Shown here: positions 30,406 to 48,813 of the stretch, one piece after another
Layout: every line of letters starts with the position of its first letter
Numbering within the stretch: position 1 is the first letter of the stretch
Source: a virus
Virus record (IMG/VR): IMGVR_UViG_3300050821_003845
Location: 1 to 53,549 of that record
Reading direction: 5' to 3' (one strand)
DNA length: 53,549 nucleotides
The notes under the pieces: generated by a model
Databases searched by the model: none
Told to the model about the DNA's origin: nothing
Seen by the model: the letters and a program-made list of their open reading frames with translations, nothing else
Program-made: the position numbers and the translations under genes

Positions 30406-31011
30406 GTGCCCCACGACCTGACCATCATGACGATGACACGCGCGACGGCAAAAGCCGCCGGGTTAAAACGCTACTTCACCGGCAAGCCATGCTCTCGCGG
30501 GCATGTCTGCGAGCGGCGTATCTCAACGTGCCAGTGCATTTCATGTGTGACGCCGCAGAAGCGGGACTGGGCGAAGGCCAACTATTGCCCAGAGATGGCA
30601 CGGCAACGGCGGCTTGCCGAGTCCGAGCAGCGGGCGCGTCGCATAAAGGCGTGGAGACGAGAAAATCAGGATCACGTCAGATCATACAAGAACGATCGTC
30701 GCCGAACAGACCCACAAATCAAACTTGCTGAGAAGCTCCGCATTCGGCTCTATAAGGCGCTGCACGGTCAGGCCAGGAACGGATCGGCGGTTAAGCTGTT
30801 AGGCATACCGCTGAAAGCAGCCATCGCCGCGATTGAAGCCAAATTCCTTCCGGGCATGACCTGGGCTAATCATGGGCTTTGGCATATCGACCACCGGCGT
30901 CCCCTTTCAAAATTTGATCTAACTAATCCCGAGCAATTGGCAGAAGTGTGCCATATTTCCAATCTTCAACCACTGTGGGCTATCGACAATCAACGAAAAG
31001 GCAGCAGATGA
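30406..31011 (+). CDS. HNH endonuclease
   Basis: A basic protein with paired cysteines (GKPCSRGHVCER, then CQCISC) and a long Arg-rich helix. The C-terminus has the HNH core typical of phage homing-type nucleases: WHIDHRRPLSKFDLTNPEQ, then CHISNLQPLWAIDNQRKG. It cuts double-stranded DNA, probably at related phage loci. Start is GTG 30406 or ATG 30427. It overlaps the endolysin start by 4 bases, as if inserted into the lysis operon. Confidence 0.8.
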   Translation: MPHDLTIMTMTRATAKAAGLKRYFTGKPCSRGHVCERRISTCQCISCVTPQKRDWAKANYCPEMARQRRLAESEQRARRIKAWRRENQDHVRSYKNDRRRTDPQIKLAEKLRIRLYKALHGQARNGSAVKLLGIPLKAAIAAIEAKFLPGMTWANHGLWHIDHRRPLSKFDLTNPEQLAEVCHISNLQPLWAIDNQRKGSR

Positions 31012-31634
31012 CAGCGATTGACTATGCAGCGCAGATTGCGGACTGCGAGGCGCGATGGGCAAAGTGCGAGATCCTTCCCTCACGGCTCAAGGAAGTGATG
31101 ACAGCCTGCGAGCGTTTGGTGGCTGCTACTGCCAAGGTCAGGTATCAGGCAGTTGAGGCCGCGACCGGCGTTCTCTGGCAGAACGTCGCCGTCATCGCCA
31201 TGCGCGAGAGCGATGCCAACTTCAAGTGCCAGCTCGGCCAGGGCGACCCGCTCAACGAAGTCTCACGCCACGTTCCCAAGGGCATGGGGCCATATCTGGA
31301 TCACCCGAGCGATGGGCCTGGTCACGATGCGTGGCACCGCTGTGCTGTGGACACCTTGCAGAACACGCCGCCCTATGCTGCGCGCTGGCGCGTTTGGACT
31401 ATCGGCGGGTCTCTTTGTTTGTTCATTCAGTACAATGGAGAGGGTTACTGGCTCTATCACGGCCATGAGCCAAGCCCTTACGATTGGGGCGGAACGAACC
31501 AGGAAGTCCGCGGCAAATATACTTCTGACGGCTCTTTCTCTGCGAGCCTCTGGGATACGCAATTGGGCTGTGCTGCCTTGCTCAAGGGCATGATGCAGCT
31601 CGACCCGTCGATCAAGTTTGCGGAGGCAGCATAA
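31008..31634 (+). CDS. Endolysin (lysozyme-family peptidoglycan hydrolase)
   Basis: A 208-residue protein with no export signal. Motifs include IAMRESDANF at about residue 64 (probable catalytic Glu), GQGDPLNEVSRHVPKGMGP, YNGEGYWLYH, SPYDWGGTNQEVRGKYTSDG and LWDTQLGCAALLKGMMQLDP. This pattern is shared by lysozymes I associate with rhizobial phages. It degrades the cell wall once the holin opens the inner membrane. ATG 31008 is favoured over upstream codons because it overlaps the previous stop. Confidence 0.8.
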   Translation: MTAIDYAAQIADCEARWAKCEILPSRLKEVMTACERLVAATAKVRYQAVEAATGVLWQNVAVIAMRESDANFKCQLGQGDPLNEVSRHVPKGMGPYLDHPSDGPGHDAWHRCAVDTLQNTPPYAARWRVWTIGGSLCLFIQYNGEGYWLYHGHEPSPYDWGGTNQEVRGKYTSDGSFSASLWDTQLGCAALLKGMMQLDPSIKFAEAA

Positions 31635-32194
31635 TGGCGCGATTTGCGATCTTGCTCGCTTTGTTTCTGGTGTTTTCTCCAACTCTCACGGTTTCTCAGC
31701 CGGCGCAGGCTCCGGCCACTGCGCCCAGCCATCAAACCACGGTCACCACGACGGGTCCGGTCAACTCCACTGAGACGATCTCGGTAGGCACGCTCGCCGG
31801 GCAGGCTTTCCTGTGGATGGTGACTGCTTTCGGAGGGGTCATAGGAACAGCGTTGACGGCGCTTATCATCAAGCTGATTCAGGCCGCAGGCATCAAGGCG
31901 ACGGACGCGCTCCGTGCCAGGCTTCAAGACATCGTGGTCAACGGGCTCAATCTGGCCGCGCAGGAAGCCGCAAAGGACTTGAAGGGAAAGCTGCCCGTGA
32001 CCGTGAACGCTGACATCAAGGCGCGGGCAACCGAGTATGTGATGAGCCACGGTGCTGATACGATCAAGGCTCTCGGCATCGACCCTACGAGCAAGCAGGC
32101 AACCGAAGCCGTCGCTGCGCACATTGAGACGGCGATAGCCGATCCGTCTGTTCCGACGCCGGCTGTGCTCGACAAGCCAAAGATCCTCACCTGA
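31634..32194 (+). CDS. Holin-like protein (LLH type)
   Basis: An N-terminal signal-like segment (RFAILLALFLVFSPTLTVS), a Thr-rich linker and a second membrane segment (AFLWMVTAFGGVIGTALTAL) are followed by a soluble helical tail (LRARLQDIVVNGLNLAAQEA). Two hydrophobic segments with a helical cytoplasmic tail directly after the endolysin fit a holin of the LLH type. The gene overlaps the endolysin by one base (ATAATGG). Confidence 0.65.
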   Translation: MARFAILLALFLVFSPTLTVSQPAQAPATAPSHQTTVTTTGPVNSTETISVGTLAGQAFLWMVTAFGGVIGTALTALIIKLIQAAGIKATDALRARLQDIVVNGLNLAAQEAAKDLKGKLPVTVNADIKARATEYVMSHGADTIKALGIDPTSKQATEAVAAHIETAIADPSVPTPAVLDKPKILT

Positions 32195-32208: not shown

Positions 32209-32484
32209 ATGAACCCCGCGACCATCTTTCAACTCTTCGCTACCAACGGTGCAGACATTCAAGCGATCATCGAAAAGATCGGACTTGGCAATGTGTTCAA
32301 GATGGTGCCAAGCGTCAGCACTTTATTCGGCCACTTTCAGACTGGAGGGATCGCACAGATACTCGCCGTTGGTGGTCCCGAAATTCAGACCATCATTGAG
32401 ACCATAGGCACTCCCAACATTCCTGCGCTTCTGCCGAACTTGGCCAACATTTGGAAAACGCTGTCTTCACCACCGGCAGCGTGA
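32209..32484 (+). CDS. Small lysis-module protein with an internal repeat
   Basis: A 91-residue protein with the repeat GADIQAIIEKIGLGN and GPEIQTIIETIGTPN about 45 residues apart, suggesting a two-helix unit duplicated in place. It is moderately hydrophobic without a clear membrane span. It is translated just after the holin (AAGGAAC before the ATG), so it may modulate lysis. No family recognised. Confidence 0.55.
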   Translation: MNPATIFQLFATNGADIQAIIEKIGLGNVFKMVPSVSTLFGHFQTGGIAQILAVGGPEIQTIIETIGTPNIPALLPNLANIWKTLSSPPAA

Positions 32485-32587: not shown

Positions 32588-33370
32588 ATGAAGCGTTTGC
32601 TGACGACTGCGGCAATTCTTGCATCTCTCTCGGTCCCGGCCCTTGGTGCGGACCTGACGCCGACTCCCACTGCCTTTAAGGCTGTCCCGGCAGCCGTCTT
32701 CAGTTGGACGGGTTTCTATGTCGGCGGCAACCTCGGCTACGGCTGGGCGGCCAGTGGTGGCGTTCCTATCGACCCTGCCACTCCAGCAGCGAACAACTTC
32801 TTCAATATGCTGGGCACGCCTGGCTCGCTCGATCAATCCAGCAAGGGGCTTGTGGGCGGCGGCCAGGCCGGCTTCAATCTGCAATACGGCACATGGGTGG
32901 TCGGCATAGAGGCGTTGGTTGATGCCACCAACATGCAGAGCAGCGCAGCACAGAATGCAGCCGGTGCCGGCATGGCGGCCATGTTGTCGTCAGGAACTCG
33001 GATCGATTGGGATGATGCAGTCCTGCTACGGCTTGGCTTTACGCCCGCGCCGAATTTCCTGATCGCCGCCATTGGTGGTGTGGCCTTTGGGAACATCTCG
33101 GACAACGCGGCCGTGGTCTGCGTGATCAAGTGCACGCTCAATGGCTTCAGCAATGGTCCGAGCAACATCCACGCCGGCTGGACGCTAGGTGCGGAGATCG
33201 ACTATGCGCTCACGAGCAACATCATCGCAGGCGTGCGGTATCGTTATGTTGACCTGGGGACACAATCTTTCCTGGTGACCGCAGGCGGTGCTCCGGCGTC
33301 GGCCACGTTCAATGCGTCTGATTCGGCGCGCTGGAACGAAATTGTTGGGACGATAAACTTCAAGTTCTAG
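32588..33370 (+). CDS. Omp25/31-like outer-membrane beta-barrel protein (host-derived cargo)
   Basis: A signal peptide (residues 1-21, ending PALGA) is followed by a linker and SWTGFYVGGNLGYGW at about residue 39, the hallmark of the abundant Omp25/31-type porin-like proteins of Bradyrhizobium, Brucella and relatives. Glycine/aromatic-rich strands follow (GLVGGGQAGFNLQYGTWVVG, AGVRYRYVDLGTQ), and the last residue is Phe, as in the beta-signal for barrel insertion. At 260 residues it is full length, so it is probably working, not a relic. It has its own candidate promoter and terminator. By analogy with lambda Lom it could change the surface of an infected or lysogenic cell. Confidence 0.85.
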   Translation: MKRLLTTAAILASLSVPALGADLTPTPTAFKAVPAAVFSWTGFYVGGNLGYGWAASGGVPIDPATPAANNFFNMLGTPGSLDQSSKGLVGGGQAGFNLQYGTWVVGIEALVDATNMQSSAAQNAAGAGMAAMLSSGTRIDWDDAVLLRLGFTPAPNFLIAAIGGVAFGNISDNAAVVCVIKCTLNGFSNGPSNIHAGWTLGAEIDYALTSNIIAGVRYRYVDLGTQSFLVTAGGAPASATFNASDSARWNEIVGTINFKF

Positions 33371-33394
33371 CGATCACGGCCACTTGATAGTTGC

Positions 33395-33425
33395 AAGCGC
33401 CGCCCGTAATCTGGGGGCGGCGCTT
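33395..33425 (+). terminator. Strong GC hairpin after the outer-membrane barrel gene
   Basis: AAGCGCCGCCC (33395-33405) pairs perfectly with GGGCGGCGCTT (33415-33425) across nine bases. It starts 25 bases after the barrel stop codon. Few T residues follow, so termination may be partial. It closes the promoter-gene-terminator unit. Confidence 0.65.
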
Positions 33426-33452
33426 TGCTTCAGCCCTTCTTCTGGTGCGATC

Positions 33453-34166
33453 ATGGCAGCGGCCCGCAGCGATAACAACGACGATGACCGTCGAGGATAC
33501 CAGACTGGCGGGCGTCTTGTTCCGGTGCCCGATCCGACCATCCTGACGACGGATCAAATACGACGCGAGATCGGTGCGCTGCGCGAGACCTTTGAAGCGC
33601 GCGTTACAAGCCAGGACCACATCCTTACTATCGCCAAGCTAGTCTTTGATCAGCAGCGCACTACGATTGATACCGCCAATTCCTCATTGAGGGAGCTGGT
33701 GTTTTCCGAGATCGCCAAGCTCAAGACTTCGACGGACGAGATGTTCAAGCGGTTGGAGGGGCAACTAAACGACCGCCTTTCTGTGATAAGCGAGGTGTTC
33801 CGCAAGGTGGACGTCCAGTTCATCGAGCGAGACAAGCAGGCCACTCAGCTCGCTTTATCGAACTCAACCGCTATCGCCGCCGCCATGCAGGCCGCTGAGA
33901 AGGCGGTCGGCGCTCAGAACATCAGCAACTCAACGGCCATTGCTAAGAGCGAGAGCGCGACGGCCGAAAGTCTGAAGCAATTGCGCGAGCTGTTCCTGTC
34001 CGAGAGCAAGGCAACCAATGATAAGGTCGAAGACCTGAAATCGAGGATGGACAAGGGCGAAGGGTTCAAGGGCGGCGGTGGCGCAGTCTGGGGCTACGTC
34101 GTTGGTGCGGCTGGACTCCTCCTTGCAGGGGCTAGCCTGATCGCCGCTATTATCCGCCATACTTAA
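33453..34166 (+). CDS. Coiled-coil protein with C-terminal membrane anchor
   Basis: A 237-residue protein. A charged N-terminus with VPVPDPTILTTDQIRREIGA is followed by long heptad-like helices (FSEIAKLKTSTDEMFKRLEG, FIERDKQATQLALSNSTAIA) and a glycine hinge. A single C-terminal membrane segment ends it (GYVVGAAGLLLAGASLIAAI). The family recurs near lysis genes in phages but its job is unknown; a holin- or spanin-like role is possible. ATG 33453 is preferred because earlier codons of the frame fall within the terminator hairpin. Confidence 0.65.
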   Translation: MAAARSDNNDDDRRGYQTGGRLVPVPDPTILTTDQIRREIGALRETFEARVTSQDHILTIAKLVFDQQRTTIDTANSSLRELVFSEIAKLKTSTDEMFKRLEGQLNDRLSVISEVFRKVDVQFIERDKQATQLALSNSTAIAAAMQAAEKAVGAQNISNSTAIAKSESATAESLKQLRELFLSESKATNDKVEDLKSRMDKGEGFKGGGGAVWGYVVGAAGLLLAGASLIAAIIRHT

Positions 34167-34188
34167 CTGCGGCGGGGATTATTAAGGA

Positions 34189-34401
34189 ATGACCGGCCTC
34201 GATCTGCGCATAAGTTCCGATCAGGTTCGTTCGATCGAGGTCGTGCTTGAAGCTGATCTATTGATCGCGATACGCACGAGCTGGATGACGGTTGAAGGCG
34301 CGCGCAAGGGTGATTGGGTTTATCTCTCGCCCGACCAAGCTGAGACGGTTGCCAAGGCTTTGATGGAAAGCGCCCAAGAGGCACGGCGTGGTCAAAATTG
34401 A
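34189..34401 (+). CDS. Small protein, unknown
   Basis: A 70-residue soluble protein (LRISSDQVRSIEVVLEADLL at the start, a C-terminal helix rich in Ala, Glu and Gln). AAGGA lies close before the ATG. No family recognised. Its last codons overlap the -35 element of the promoter for the next gene. Confidence 0.5.
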   Translation: MTGLDLRISSDQVRSIEVVLEADLLIAIRTSWMTVEGARKGDWVYLSPDQAETVAKALMESAQEARRGQN

Positions 34402-34426
34402 ACATCTGACAGATCGTAGCTATGTT
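34398..34426 (+). promoter_or_regulatory. Putative sigma70-type promoter of the BA14K-like gene
   Basis: TTGAAC (34398-34403) and TATGTT (34421-34426), with a 17-base spacer and four of six matches each. The start would fall near 34433, shortly before AAGGAG and ATG 34450. Confidence 0.5.
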
Positions 34427-34449
34427 AGGATGCAGCCAAGGAGACTCAC

Positions 34450-34809
34450 ATGAGAATGCTTACTCTTTCGATGGCGGCGATCGCTGTTCTGGCCTCTACT
34501 TCCGCTGACGCCCAATGGCGACGCGGCTGGGACCGTGGCGAGGGGATCATAGGCGGCATCATCGGGGGCGCAATCGTCGGCTCTCAAGCGCCGTACTATC
34601 AGCCGCCCGTTGTTTACGTGCCGCAGCCGGTTTATGTGCCGCCGCAATACGAACAGGTGCCGGCATACGTTCCGCCTGTTCCGCCCGTCGCAGCCATCGC
34701 CGTCAATCCGGCCGTCGCCATCGCATACTGTGCGCGTCGCTTCCGCACCTATGACCCGACGACTGGAACGTACTTCGGACCTGGTGGCATCCGCCATTCA
34801 TGTCCCTAA
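34450..34809 (+). CDS. BA14K-like exported protein (host-derived cargo)
   Basis: A signal peptide (residues 1-22, ending STSADAQ) precedes a glycine-rich helix (GIIGGIIGGAIVG) and a Pro/Val/Tyr repeat region. The C-terminal 30 residues (AYCARRFRTYDPTTGTYFG, then IRHSCP) match the BA14K family, a small lectin-like envelope protein known almost only from Hyphomicrobiales such as Brucella and Bradyrhizobium. The two cysteines of the motif are present. It has its own promoter and ribosome site. Likely role: surface or periplasmic modification of the host. Confidence 0.82.
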   Translation: MRMLTLSMAAIAVLASTSADAQWRRGWDRGEGIIGGIIGGAIVGSQAPYYQPPVVYVPQPVYVPPQYEQVPAYVPPVPPVAAIAVNPAVAIAYCARRFRTYDPTTGTYFGPGGIRHSCP

Positions 34810-34823
34810 CAAGGAGACCGACC

Positions 34824-35225
34824 ATGAGGCTGTTCCTGATTGCGCCGCTCGCCGTTCTGTTGAGCACAGCGGCTTTCGCGCAAGCACCTGCTGTTGCGCC
34901 AGCTCCCGCACCTGTCGCGGCTCCGGTGCCTAATCCCAATGCCCCGGTGACGGCTGTGGCTGTCGAGCTGACCCCGGAGCAGGATGCGATCATCTACCGT
35001 GAGGCCACGATGACGCCGGCTGAGCGGGCGCAGATTCCGATCCGGCTTGGCGACATGGTGCCGTTGACGGTGAAGACCGCGCTGGTTCCTGATTCGCTGG
35101 GCATCGAGAAGGCCAAGGGCCTGTGGTACACGGTCGTTCCTAGTCTGCACGATGGACAGACGTTCCACGACGTCATCCTTATCGACGGCAACCACAAGGT
35201 CGTGCGGATCATTCCGGGGCACTGA
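34824..35225 (+). CDS. Exported DUF1236-like periplasmic protein
   Basis: A signal peptide (MRLFLIAPLAVLLSTAAFAQ) is followed by an Ala/Pro-rich linker. A compact C-terminal domain (RLGDMVPLTVKTALVPDS, then DVILIDGNHKVVRIIPGH) recalls the DUF1236 repeat of rhizobial periplasmic proteins, whose function is unknown. AAGGAG lies before ATG 34824. It is probably co-transcribed with the BA14K-like gene. Confidence 0.65.
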   Translation: MRLFLIAPLAVLLSTAAFAQAPAVAPAPAPVAAPVPNPNAPVTAVAVELTPEQDAIIYREATMTPAERAQIPIRLGDMVPLTVKTALVPDSLGIEKAKGLWYTVVPSLHDGQTFHDVILIDGNHKVVRIIPGH

Positions 35226-35228
35226 TCA

Positions 35229-35239
35229 GTTAGACTAAC
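35229..35239. promoter_or_regulatory. Short odd palindrome in the leader of the small membrane gene
   Basis: GTTAGACTAAC is a perfect palindrome around a central A, four bases after the previous stop codon. Ten of its bases recur on the minus strand at 51503-51513 (GTTAGACTAAT). It could be a protein-binding site; chance cannot be excluded. Confidence 0.25.
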
Positions 35240-35310
35240 GAGGTGCTGCTAGGATTCGCGCAGCTTAATGACGAGCCGGAATCGTCGCCTTTAAGACAAG
35301 GAAAACCGCC

Positions 35311-35496
35311 ATGCCGATCGGTTATATTTTCTGGTTATTGATGATCTTGTGGGCCTTCGGCTTCTGGGGGATTGGTTGGGGTGGCTGGGGTGGCGCGAGA
35401 GGTCCGCTTTGGGCCGGCTTCATGCTTTGGTTGCTTTTGTTTTTTTTAGGGTGGCACGATTTTGGCTTCGTGCTACAAGGCGGCATGGGGCGCTGA
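35311..35496 (+). CDS. Small Trp/Gly-rich membrane protein
   Basis: A 61-residue protein with two hydrophobic segments separated by a Gly/Trp-rich turn (GIGWGGWGGARGPLWAG) and a C-terminal GGMGR. AAGGAAAA precedes the ATG. It resembles tiny membrane peptides encoded next to DUF3309 proteins in Proteobacteria, which is what follows here. Function unknown. Confidence 0.55.
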   Translation: MPIGYIFWLLMILWAFGFWGIGWGGWGGARGPLWAGFMLWLLLFFLGWHDFGFVLQGGMGR

Positions 35497-35660
35497 CATG
35501 GATCTTTTTGTTGCTCGTCATCGTGCTGCTGCTGCTATTCGGCGGCCTCGGCATTGTCCCTGGCACGAGTTATGGGTACGGATGGGGACATGGCGGCATC
35601 GGGATCGTAGGCGTGATCCTGATCATCGTCGTGATCTTGGTGCTGACGGGGAACCTCTAA
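35493..35660 (+). CDS. DUF3309-like small membrane peptide with non-canonical start
   Basis: The frame encodes WIFLLLVIVLLLLFGGLG, a Gly/Tyr/Trp-rich loop (YGYGWGHGGIGIVG) and a second span (VILIIVVILVLTGNL), the exact layout of the DUF3309 family. There is no ATG or GTG at the right place: the choices are CTG at 35493, which overlaps the upstream stop as CTGA, or TTG at 35508. Translational coupling to the upstream peptide would explain how it is read. Confidence 0.55.
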   Translation: MTWIFLLLVIVLLLLFGGLGIVPGTSYGYGWGHGGIGIVGVILIIVVILVLTGNL

Positions 35661-35664
35661 AACT

Positions 35665-35696
35665 GAGCCGGCCGACTCCTTCCAATCGGCCGGCTC
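35665..35696. terminator. Bidirectional terminator between converging operons
   Basis: GAGCCGGCCGA (35665-35675) pairs perfectly with TCGGCCGGCTC (35686-35696), and flanking ACT/AGT bases extend it past one bulge. It lies between the ends of plus-strand and minus-strand genes, so it can serve both. Confidence 0.75.
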
Positions 35697-35708
35697 CAGT
35701 TCGCTCCC

Positions 35709-39784: not shown

Positions 39785-39813
39785 TATGTACGCGCATTGA
39801 CGAGTAAGGTCAA
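39785..39813 (-). promoter_or_regulatory. Promoter of the leftward recombination operon
   Basis: On the minus strand TTGACC (39813-39808) and TACATA (39790-39785) are separated by exactly 17 bases. Transcription would start near 39778 and read the six-gene recombination operon. The element sits in the divergent gap between left and right early genes. Confidence 0.6.
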
Positions 39814-39832
39814 GCAGCGTAAATATGGCCCA

Positions 39833-40438
39833 ATGCTGGAACGGCCCGGAAAATCCAAAACGCTATTTGACCAGTTCTCGCGCGGCTACGTGCGTCATTG
39901 GCCGTCGATCCCTGCCGGGGTTCAGGAAGCCAAGCTCATGACCGCTGGTCTGTTGGCTCGGCAATTATACCGGGAAGGACGAGGCGCTGAGAGCCTACAG
40001 ACGCTTGCCAAAGCGACACGCAAGGGTCAGATCATTGGGGTGTTCGGCGGCTTGAGAATCTTCGGCGGTAGTCACCGGGAGATCTCTGACGCCACGGCCG
40101 AGATCAAGAAACGCGGCGGTATCATCGTTGATGCGAGCACGGGGCAGCGCAGCGATATAGACGGTATCGAAATGTTGTCGCGCGCCTTGGCAATGCTCAA
40201 AGGTGAGAAGGTGCTCGGTGATCGAGCTGCCGAGATCGGATCGCTCGGCGGCTTGGCGGCGGCTCGCGCCGCCAGGAAGCTCCGAATGTCTGAAGCTCAA
40301 GCACGGGCAATCTGGCGTGACAAGTCGCTCACCCGTAATGAGGCGATCTCGCGCATGCCAGGCTGGACGCTCTCGACTGCGAAGCATCACTTCAAAGCCA
40401 GCGGCCGAAAGAAAGGCCCGAAGGCGAGAAAGGGCTAG
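39833..40438 (+). CDS. Early protein, paralogue of the GIY-YIG protein N-terminal domain
   Basis: A basic protein. After 60 helical residues it has a domain (GLRIFGGSHREISDATAEIK, IIVDASTGQRSDIDGIEML, RALAMLKGEKVLGDRAAEIG) that aligns along its length with the protein encoded around 40928 (GLRVLGDSRKTI, GTGDRSDRHGVRML). A C-terminal HTH-like part follows (MSEAQARAIWRDKSLTRNEA). The fold recalls a resolvase-like alpha/beta domain plus a DNA-binding tail; this is inference. TTG 39797 would lie inside the opposing promoter, so ATG 39833 is preferred, without a clear ribosome site. Confidence 0.55.
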   Translation: MLERPGKSKTLFDQFSRGYVRHWPSIPAGVQEAKLMTAGLLARQLYREGRGAESLQTLAKATRKGQIIGVFGGLRIFGGSHREISDATAEIKKRGGIIVDASTGQRSDIDGIEMLSRALAMLKGEKVLGDRAAEIGSLGGLAAARAARKLRMSEAQARAIWRDKSLTRNEAISRMPGWTLSTAKHHFKASGRKKGPKARKG

Positions 40439-40889: not shown

Positions 40890-41614
40890 ATGAAGCTCGA
40901 TGCAAAATTCTACGGTGAGGCCTGCGCGTGCTCGGCGATAGCCGCAAGACAATCGTGGCGGCGGTGAACGCAATCGCCGAGAAGGGCGCCGTCCTTTACG
41001 ACGTGGGTACCGGTGATCGCAGCGACCGACATGGCGTCCGCATGCTCAATCGAGCCATCGCAATGCTTCATGGCGAGCTGTCGATGGGTGACCGTGCGGA
41101 GATTATCGGCTCGATGGGCGGTGAGGCGCACGCCGAAGCCATCCGCAAGGCGCGCATGCCCAAAGAAGAAGCCCGCATGATTTGGCTAGACCAGCGCATA
41201 AGTACCGCAGAGGCAGTCAAGCGCATGGGGCCGTACTGGTCGAAGCCAACAGCTCAACGCGCATTCGGGCCATCGGGAAGATCGAAGGGACCGTTCAAGG
41301 CCGAGAAGGCAAATGCAGCACCCGCTCCGATTCATCCCAAGATAAGACGCGCTAAGGCACCAGGGCAGGTTTATTTTCTGCTGGCGCGTAAGGGCGGCGC
41401 GGTAAAGATTGGCTTCTCGGCAAAAGGTGTCTCGCGCATCAACGATCTACAGATTGCGCACCATGAACCGCTGAAGCTTGTTGCGCTCATACGAGGATCG
41501 CGCGCGAAGGAAGCAGCACTACATAAGAAGTTCGCGCAATATCGGATCAGAGGTGAATGGTTTCGGTATGCCGGTGAAGTCAAAGACTTCGTTGTGGCTC
41601 ACCGCAAGCGGTAG
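40890..41614 (+). pseudogene. Resolvase-like/GIY-YIG (MUG113-type) protein, start separated by a likely frameshift
   Basis: ATG 40890 has a good GGAGG and begins MKLDAKFYGEAC, then runs into TGA. The homologous body lies in the -1 frame, where a TGA at 40916 is followed at once by GLRVLGDSRKTI, matching GLRIFGGSHREI of the neighbouring paralogue. Adding one base near 40915-40918 would join them. As it stands the body could start at GTG 40928 (229 codons with stop). The C-terminal 85 residues are a GIY-YIG/MUG113-type nuclease domain: GQVYFLLARKGGAVKIGFSA, then HHEPLKLVALIRGSRAKEAA and RIRGEWFRY. Either a recent mutation, a sequence error, or a real late start. Confidence 0.6.
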
Positions 41615-45093: not shown

Positions 45094-45692
45094 CATGGCC
45101 CTTCGGCAAGCTGCCGATGTTCGGCTTCGATTTTGCGATGATTGACGCTCCCTGGACCTTTGCGCTGCACTCCCCGAAGGGTGAGGCAAAGGCCGCGCAA
45201 GCCCAATACGCCTGCATGTCGCTTGCGGAGATCAAGGCGCTGCCGATCGGTGATCTGCTGCGGCCTGACGCCGTGGTCATGCTGTGGGCGACGAATCCTA
45301 TGTTGCCGCAGGCGTTCGAGGCGCTGGACGCATGGTCGATCAAGTTCAAGACGGCGGGCCATTGGGTCAAGCACACTGACAGCGGCAAGCTCTCGTTTGG
45401 AACCGGCTACCTGCTGCGCTGTGCCGGCGAGCCCTTCCTGATTGGCACGGTAGGGAAACCACGGACGACGCGGGTATGCCGCTCGATTATTGAAGGCCCT
45501 GTTCGGGAACACTCACGCAAGCCTGACGAAGCCTACGCATGGGCGGAAGCGTTGATGCCGGGTGCGATGCGCGCGGACATCTTCGCGAGACAGAGACGCC
45601 CGCGATGGGTGGCATGGGGCCACGAGGTTAGTAAGTTCGATGGGGCGGTATCCGAGAATCGATCGCGACCTGGTGCGCGGGCTGTACGATGA
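45090..45692 (+). CDS. MT-A70 family adenine methyltransferase
   Basis: A 200-residue protein. FDFAMIDAPWTF at residues 13-24 holds a DAPW version of the DPPW catalytic motif of N6-adenine methylases. LRPDAVVMLWATNPMLPQAF, then LSFGTGYLLRCAGEPFLIGT and REHSRKPDEAYAWAEALMPG follow in MT-A70 order. It probably methylates phage DNA and may protect it from restriction. ATG 45090 overlaps the upstream stop. The C-terminus overlaps the next gene by 53 bases. Confidence 0.85.
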   Translation: MTWPFGKLPMFGFDFAMIDAPWTFALHSPKGEAKAAQAQYACMSLAEIKALPIGDLLRPDAVVMLWATNPMLPQAFEALDAWSIKFKTAGHWVKHTDSGKLSFGTGYLLRCAGEPFLIGTVGKPRTTRVCRSIIEGPVREHSRKPDEAYAWAEALMPGAMRADIFARQRRPRWVAWGHEVSKFDGAVSENRSRPGARAVR

Positions 45693-46536
45693 GCACCGCA
45701 ACGTCACGCGGGTGCATGAGCTGTTAGTTGAGCGCGGTATTGCGTGCAGCTATGGGACCATCCGCTCCATCATCTCAGGCAAGGCAGATTCCGCGAAGGG
45801 CCGCAAAACCCGTTCCAGGTTTGCGGAAGAGCCCGTGGACAACCGGCTGGCCAAAATGCCGGCGATCAACAATCCGGCATTAGCAGAGATGCGAACGCTC
45901 TACCCGCACACCGTCGTTCGCGATCTCACCAACGTGACGATGCTCAAGAGCGGCGAGCACCAGAAAAAGATCGGTGGAAAAGTCTTGAAGGGGAAGTGGG
46001 CCGGATTTCCCGTCTACTGCCTGACGCTGGAAGAGCGGGTGACGTGTCCGGTGTCCTGTCGGCATATTCGTAGCTGCTACGGGAATCAAATGAATTGGGC
46101 ACACCGACACGATCACCGTGCGCCTGAGTTCGAGTGGAAGCTCGCGCGGGAGGTGGTGGAACTCGGCCGGCGACACCCGAACGGATTCGTGGTTCGCCTA
46201 CACATCCTCGGGGATTTCTTCTCAGTACGGTACGTGCACCTGTGGGAAGCGCTGCTCGACCAGGTGCCAGCGCTGCACGTGTACGGCTACACCGCTCGAT
46301 GGGGGGATGAGATCGCGAGCGCGTTGATGTCTATCTCGGTGAACCGATGGGCGCGGTTTGCGATCCGGTTTTCCAATGCTCCGATGCCAGCGCGAGCGAC
46401 GGTGACGATCGAGCACCCGATGCAGCGGCCGGCAAACGCCTTCATCTGTCCGGTGCAGTTGGGCAGAACTGAAAGTTGCGCGACCTGTGCCGCCTGTTGG
46501 TCGACAAAGAAGAATGTCGCCTTTGTCCAGCATTGA
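45640..46536 (+). CDS. HTH-fused cysteine-rich phage protein (Gp88/DUF7227-like)
   Basis: A 298-residue protein. The first 50 residues look like a helix-turn-helix (DRDLVRGLYDEHRNVTRVHE, then CSYGTIRSIISG). The body holds VTCPVSCRHIRSCYGNQMNW, RLHILGDFFSVRYVHLWEAL and ALHVYGYTARWG, the pattern of a phage family related to Gp88. It ends in a second cysteine cluster (CPVQLGRTESCATCAACW). The clustered cysteines suggest an Fe-S or zinc site near a conserved LGDFFS pocket. Function of the family is unknown to me; the HTH fusion hints at DNA or RNA targeting. Confidence 0.65.
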   Translation: MGRYPRIDRDLVRGLYDEHRNVTRVHELLVERGIACSYGTIRSIISGKADSAKGRKTRSRFAEEPVDNRLAKMPAINNPALAEMRTLYPHTVVRDLTNVTMLKSGEHQKKIGGKVLKGKWAGFPVYCLTLEERVTCPVSCRHIRSCYGNQMNWAHRHDHRAPEFEWKLAREVVELGRRHPNGFVVRLHILGDFFSVRYVHLWEALLDQVPALHVYGYTARWGDEIASALMSISVNRWARFAIRFSNAPMPARATVTIEHPMQRPANAFICPVQLGRTESCATCAACWSTKKNVAFVQH

Positions 46537-48282: not shown

Positions 48283-48813
48283 GTGCAATGGGGGTGCCAA
48301 GTGAGTAAACGGTTTCGTCGTCCAAAAGCTCGCAAGGATTTAGCTTTACTCCGGTACTCGGAGAGCGTTGGCTATCGATGTTTCTTCGATGGATGCTGCG
48401 AGCCTTGCAATCCAGGTGGGACTGGCGGCTTTGGTGTGGTCATCTATCGTGGTGCCGACAAAATCTATGAGGATTCTGGATCGATCACGGCATCGCCGGA
48501 AGTAACTAACAACGTGGCGGAGTATAGCGCGCTGGACCTCATCCTGGATTGGTTCATCACGAATGGGCTGACGGGCGAGCCGATCGCGGTGTTCGGCGAT
48601 TCTAATATGGTGATCCAGCAATGCTTCGGGACGTGGAAAATCCGTGGCGGCTACTACGCGGAGATTGCGCGCGTGGTCAAAGAGAAGCTGAAGCAGTTCA
48701 CGAACATTCGTGGAAGCTGGATACCGCGTGAGGAAAATGGCACTGCGGATGATCTTTCAAAAGCGCATCTGCGCGCGGCCGGAGTCGAGTTTCGCATTCA
48801 ACCGGAGGGCTGA
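48283..48813 (+). CDS. rnhA: Ribonuclease HI
   Basis: A 176-residue protein with the RNase H set: CFFDGCCEPCNPGGTGGFG (Asp36, Glu40), NNVAEYSAL (Glu80) and FGDSNMVIQQ (Asp106), followed by a C-terminal part with WIPREENGTADDLSKAHL. It removes RNA from RNA-DNA hybrids such as primers or replication R-loops. GTG 48301 with GGGGG upstream is an alternative start that would remove six residues before the domain. Confidence 0.85.
   Translation: MQWGCQVSKRFRRPKARKDLALLRYSESVGYRCFFDGCCEPCNPGGTGGFGVVIYRGADKIYEDSGSITASPEVTNNVAEYSALDLILDWFITNGLTGEPIAVFGDSNMVIQQCFGTWKIRGGYYAEIARVVKEKLKQFTNIRGSWIPREENGTADDLSKAHLRAAGVEFRIQPEG

Follow-up and report, generated by a model that had tools for sequence, protein, structure and literature searches.

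A lysis-plus-envelope gene cassette, probably exchanged among phages, at the end of the late region of a contractile-tail phage contig

Phage-encoded surface proteins are known, mostly as lysogenic cargo of enterobacterial phages. The window studied here, i.e., the entire 53,549 bases of the IMG/VR record IMGVR_UViG_3300050821_003845 (linear, terminal repeats absent), carries several genes of families typical of Hyphomicrobiales chromosomes directly after its lysis genes, which raises the question of whether these are host genes borne as cargo or belong to the late program of the phage itself. An earlier note on this DNA had argued for the former, viz., an island of host-type envelope genes, with promoters and a terminator of their own, that jointly remodel the surface of the infected or lysogenic cell. 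Our analysis favors another answer: these genes are probably part of a late-operon lysis-plus-envelope cassette exchanged among phages of this host group. We take the exchanged cassette to comprise the genes for the endolysin-like protein, the holin-like protein, the outer-membrane barrel, a coiled-coil membrane protein, and the small membrane peptides TM61 and DUF3309, with the BA14K and DUF1236-like genes being seen so far only in this contig.

Organization of the contig and the cassette

The contig belongs to a soil phage with a contractile tail, as indicated by genes for the sheath, hub, and baseplate wedge. A scan of proteins from this incomplete contig turned up no integrase, and searches for tRNAs and Rfam families returned no matches. 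The envelope genes form the distal end of the rightward late genes, directly ahead of a convergent leftward operon with the RecT and exonuclease VIII genes, which lie on the strand opposite to the late genes. The features of the region, in order, are:

30948..31634, + strand: endolysin-like protein, 228 aa, name based on its position and on a similar protein encoded next to a DUF3309 gene
31634..32194, + strand: holin-like membrane protein, 186 aa, two hydrophobic segments, name inferred
32209..32484, + strand: orf91, without a family, no relative found
32588..33370, + strand: outer-membrane beta-barrel, 260 aa, PF13505, eight predicted strands, hydrophobic N-terminal segment
33393..33428, + strand: hairpin after the barrel gene, -27.3 kcal/mol, terminator-like with a weak T tract
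33453..34166, + strand: 237-aa coiled-coil-like protein with a membrane segment at the C-terminus, relatives in L007, L092, and L115
34189..34401, + strand: orf70, no confident family
34450..34809, + strand: BA14K-family exported protein, 119 aa, PF07886
34824..35225, + strand: 133-aa exported protein with a remote resemblance to DUF1236, outside the family by Pfam
35311..35496, + strand: TM61, small two-segment membrane peptide, 61 aa, homologs in other phages
35508..35660, + strand: DUF3309 peptide, about 50 aa, PF11752, TTG start at 35508 guessed
35661..35701, no strand assigned: hairpin separating the late operon from the convergent RecT/exonuclease operon, -25.3 kcal/mol

The proximity to lysis genes described in the earlier note stands, in that the endolysin-like and holin-like genes directly precede the island; both are named by position or analogy, and the endolysin-like protein has neither a Pfam match nor a PHROG name. 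As for the island itself, the note named four of the seven genes within it and overlooked the 237-aa coiled-coil protein, orf70, and TM61.

Recurrence of the cassette in other phages

No DNA match to the whole island was found in cultured phages. Parts of it recur among the virus contigs compared here, in which L-numbers label the contigs or loci and L002, L007, and L107 are independent virus contigs. The gene order is lipoprotein-barrel-holin-coil in L007, lipoprotein-barrel-hairpin-TM56-DUF3309-coil in L002, and holin-like-TM61-DUF3309-coil in L107, where the holin-like gene directly precedes the TM61-DUF3309 pair; L111 has lysozyme, lipoprotein, holin-like, and DUF3309 genes, and L113 has endolysin-like, membrane protein, and DUF3309 genes. 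The cassette proteins are 55-83% identical to their counterparts in L002 and L007, save for the endolysin-like protein of L007, whereas elsewhere in the genomes most of the proteins that could be aligned share 22-40% identity, two matches in the tail region and a right-arm gene being higher, at 52-58%. Among the individual components, the C-terminus of the endolysin-like protein is 64% identical to that of L002, 36% to L113, and 29% to L007; the holin-like protein is about 82% identical to that of L007 and 54% to that of L107; and the 237-aa coiled-coil protein is 75-78% identical between the phages (75% to L007), 37% to L092, and 25% to L115, with no counterpart found in 297 host-family genomes in a search run without a positive control. 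Between these phages, the cassette genes resemble each other far more closely than most of the other genes do, and the simplest reading of identities so far above the rest is that distant phages with similar hosts have swapped parts of the cassette; structural genes that evolve faster than the cassette genes may be an alternative source of the contrast.

The close association of these genes with those for endolysin-like and holin-like proteins, seen in several phages, would also suit a function in lysis proper, in which the envelope is breached with the help of the barrel, the small membrane proteins, and, in the relatives, the lipoprotein, and the barrel has nothing to do with other phages. 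No spanin pair was recognized in the window, and both DUF3309 and TM61 resemble two-segment membrane peptides, which agrees with such a function. However, the predicted eight-stranded barrel is not among the known folds of lysis proteins, and other phages with the same small membrane genes (L107, L115, and L092) have no recognized barrel, which makes the barrel an optional component. We therefore regard a direct lysis aid as somewhat unlikely, albeit the best-surviving alternative to an exchanged cassette that combines lysis and envelope functions.

DUF3309 and TM61 as a recurrent phage gene pair

The peptide described in the earlier note as DUF3309-like matches PF11752 above the Pfam cut-off (E=1.6e-8; 35 bits against 22.3), has two hydrophobic segments around a Gly/Tyr/His-rich loop, and is 80% identical to the copy in L002. 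A DNA pattern for the Gly-rich loop retrieved 42 IMG/VR contigs, several of them near-duplicates, and all 42 encode DUF3309-like peptides. Within 2 kb of the phage DUF3309 genes are found endolysins, SU10-type capsid/adaptor genes, terminases, and tail fibres; endolysin, holin, tail-fibre, or head genes are often nearby, and the DUF3309 genes themselves often overlap late genes or stand a few bases away from them. These contexts mark DUF3309 as a gene that phages repeatedly carry in their late region. The copy in the window went unrecognized in a PHROGs search; no DUF3309 protein match was obtained in cultured phages, in a search weakened by low-complexity filtering; and the open literature searched names DUF3309 only in a secretome list unrelated to phages. 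The recurrence of this family, known from bacterial chromosomes, as a phage late gene is the most useful lead to emerge from this locus.

TM61, which likewise has two hydrophobic segments, is 55% identical to its homologs in L107 and L115 and 30% to that in L002. Homologs lie directly upstream of DUF3309 in L107 and, in less similar form, in L002, L076, and L084; the TM61-DUF3309 pair thus recurs in other phages. At the junction of the two genes (35440-35510), TM61 contains a run of eight T, and DUF3309 lacks the in-frame ATG present at this place in L002; a sequencing error, a start codon other than ATG, or a -1 slip could each account for this.

We tentatively suggest that TM61 and DUF3309 work alongside the holin in the inner membrane. 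A bolder and distinctly speculative extension is that they constitute an unrecognized lysis-control pair of the holin/antiholin/pinholin type, widespread in uncultivated phages and kin to a bacterial envelope-stress family, with the barrel as an outer-membrane partner that would shield the dying cell and its debris from readsorption.

Alternatively, the two peptides might be mere hitch-hikers that came from host envelope-stress loci and play no part in infection. DUF3309 occurs in 97 of the 150 host-family genomes sampled; the best-matching chromosomal genes lie in stress- or transport-type neighborhoods near CsbD-like genes, and at 7 of 14 host loci the gene stands behind a 48-aa membrane peptide. 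Two phage copies also display a host-like GGFSG loop, and the chromosomal loci make a host origin of the family plausible. Yet hitch-hiking sits poorly with the presence of the gene in 42 virus contigs, often overlapping late genes or a few bases from them, and with the TM61 pairing in several phages, and we consider it quite unlikely that the peptides are passive passengers. The 48-aa peptide preceding the host genes is itself conserved (MNRN...YQLYQERQKTTGIEINIG...ISIEKK in L032, L035, L038, and L040-L043) and parallels TM61 in the phages.

A phage lineage of outer-membrane barrels

The assignment of an Omp25/31-like barrel in the earlier note is borne out by a match to PF13505 (OMP_b-brl; E=1.5e-9; 38.7 bits against a cut-off of 28.7). 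A hydrophobic N-terminal segment is a probable signal peptide, and the protein would go to the outer membrane. The structure model has eight strands (pLDDT 67, i.e., moderate confidence), and its closest solved folds are OmpA, Ail, and OmpW; the sequence returned no match when searched against solved structures, and neither a PHROG nor an Ail_Lom-type Pfam match links it to Lom/Ail. Among predicted viral proteins, the model matches several annotated phage outer-membrane barrels along with Bartonella Pap31; phage barrels as such are thus already known.

The barrel is 69% identical to that of L002 and 55% to that of L007, as against 37-42% for the best matches in 392 host-family genomes, of which 162 encode barrels at E<=1e-20 and two, both from Bradyrhizobium, have 18 and 22 matches, respectively. 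In a phylogenetic tree the barrels of the window, L002, and L007 group together in a single long-stemmed clade, supported at 100/100 and distinct from the sampled host paralogs. As this clade holds only the three closely related phage barrels known and the 392 genomes sample one family, a closer host donor may exist, and any transfer may have run in either direction. The dN values of 0.26-0.39 against a dS of about 1.5 (near saturation) indicate that the barrel is under purifying selection, and its GC3 of 0.69 compares with a phage mean of 0.716. These sequence comparisons argue that the barrel belongs to an old phage lineage and is not fresh host cargo.

A more distant Omp-type barrel (31% identity) is encoded in another virus contig (L008:3415-4257), with terminase-type genes about 2.5 kb downstream. 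In L002, a gene that appears by eye to be transposase-like (1876-2793) lies between the end of the endolysin gene and the barrel. An exported protein of L107 was considered as a second barrel and rejected, with its fold predicted at pLDDT 29 and its HMM similarity residing mainly in the signal peptide.

Transcription signals and the two genes seen only in this contig

The promoter-gene-terminator layout of cargo genes attributed to this region survives in part. A strong hairpin does follow the barrel: its stability is unmatched among 1500 random segments of equal length, and it resembles a terminator with a weak T tract. The 17-spaced promoters claimed for the barrel and BA14K genes are at chance level: both are 8/12 sites, equaled by 19% of random 110-nt stretches of the same genome when only the sigma-70 consensus is considered, and a scan at 9/12 finds no site at either gene. 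An unrelated hairpin with a T5 tail occupies the equivalent position after the barrel in L002, and none follows the barrel in L007. The spacing is tight in these relatives, at 27 nt between the lipoprotein gene and the start of the barrel in L002 and 28 nt between the barrel and the start of the holin-like gene in L007, which speaks for co-transcription of the barrel with its neighbors.

The BA14K-like protein is a genuine family member (PF07886: E=3.1e-10; 40.3 bits against a cut-off of 26), with best host-family matches at 43-53% identity and copies of the family in 115 of the 150 host-family genomes sampled. A BA14K motif scan recovered three virus contigs (L117-L119) with near-copies of one protein that is far from the BA14K of the window; this protein is 230-244 aa long, glycine/tyrosine-rich, and lies in a different setting. 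For the DUF1236-like protein the earlier assignment holds as a resemblance and not as a membership: it has no Pfam match at E<=1, and scores 13.2 bits against our own HMM of 13 host DUF1236 domains, vs a best of 7.2 in 200 shuffles and a curated PF06823 cut-off of 32.4 bits; the resemblance is thus real but distant, and the score falls well short of family membership. DUF1236 itself is present in 31 of the 31 host-family genomes sampled; relatives of the window's protein were found in none of the viral contigs and in 0 of 249 genomes. Neither gene was seen in the related phages, and cultured phages gave no protein match to either.

It is these two genes that may best fit the idea of host capture. 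In its full form, that idea holds that a recently captured host envelope island with its own promoters jointly remodels the surface of the lysogen. The host-type character ascribed to the protein families is well founded, as the above counts from Xanthobacteraceae/Bradyrhizobium-like genomes show for all of them; the hairpin after the barrel is also in keeping with capture, and the BA14K and DUF1236-like genes, not found in the related phages, may be captures. Against this stand the long-stemmed, phage-only barrel clade with its phage-like GC3, the chance-level promoters, and the phage genes (the coiled-coil protein, orf70, and TM61) lying between the named ones. With DUF3309 recurrent in phages, the picture of fresh host cargo gives way; nor do the four named genes, which are not conserved as one traveling set, or the lack of an integrase among the proteins scanned from the incomplete contig, lend support to a coordinated remodeling of a lysogen. 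We accordingly hold recent capture of the whole island to be improbable. A misassembly joining host DNA to the phage, conceivable for a metagenomic contig with host-type families, is most improbable, given that the cassette neighbors recur together in L002, L007, and L107 and that the GC3 of the barrel matches that of the phage.

Proposed function and comparison with known systems

Under the exchanged-cassette interpretation, the cassette genes would be transcribed late, together with the lysis genes, and the barrel would be exported and inserted into the outer membrane, altering the surface of the infected cell near the time of lysis. By analogy to the logic of Lom/Cor, the likeliest of the roles for the barrel, proposed here with reserve, might be to limit superinfection, or to limit how far progeny readsorb to the infected cell and to cell debris.

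Lambda Lom and Bor are phage-encoded outer-membrane cargo expressed in lysogens (PMC7067206). Like them, the barrel of the window is a small, phage-borne, predicted outer-membrane protein with an OmpA/Ail-type predicted fold; unlike them, it is without a Lom/Ail sequence match, is linked to lysis genes, is of the Omp25/31 type of Hyphomicrobiales, and shows no sign of lysogeny. With the host Omp25/Omp31 barrels (OMP_b-brl, Porin_2; Bradyrhizobium and relatives, Bartonella Pap31/HbpA) it shares the Pfam family, an SWTGFYVG start, a probable signal peptide, and the predicted eight strands, whereas the phage versions stand in their own clade with at most about 42% identity to host copies. The phage DUF3309 likewise passes the same Pfam cut-off as the chromosomal versions and shares their Gly-rich loop between two hydrophobic segments; it differs in that the phage genes lie in late or lysis regions, several paired with TM61, in contrast to the stress-type neighborhoods of the chromosomal ones. 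A comparable arrangement is found in Agrobacterium phage Rivra, whose OMP_b-brl barrel RIVRA_27 lies beside a lysozyme and a coiled-coil membrane protein; in contrast to the window, that barrel (31% identical) is on the strand opposite to the lysis genes and Rivra has an integrase. The present locus thus offers a Hyphomicrobiales-type barrel in a lysis-region cassette probably exchanged between distant phages, and the barrel cassette and the phage DUF3309 together yield testable predictions on how lysis and superinfection proceed in a host group that has received little study.

Elsewhere in the window, two adjacent genes (39797-40438 and 40928-41614) share a common domain that is 52-54% identical to one L002 protein, with the product of the latter having this domain fused to a T5orf172/MUG113 domain. 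The left end of the contig (3-773) encodes a truncated, hydrophobic, multi-segment protein that appears O-antigen-ligase-like by eye, without a Pfam match, and the right arm codes for a protein with a Gene product 88 domain (45562-46536; PF17338) and an RNase H-like protein (48283-48813; PF13456).
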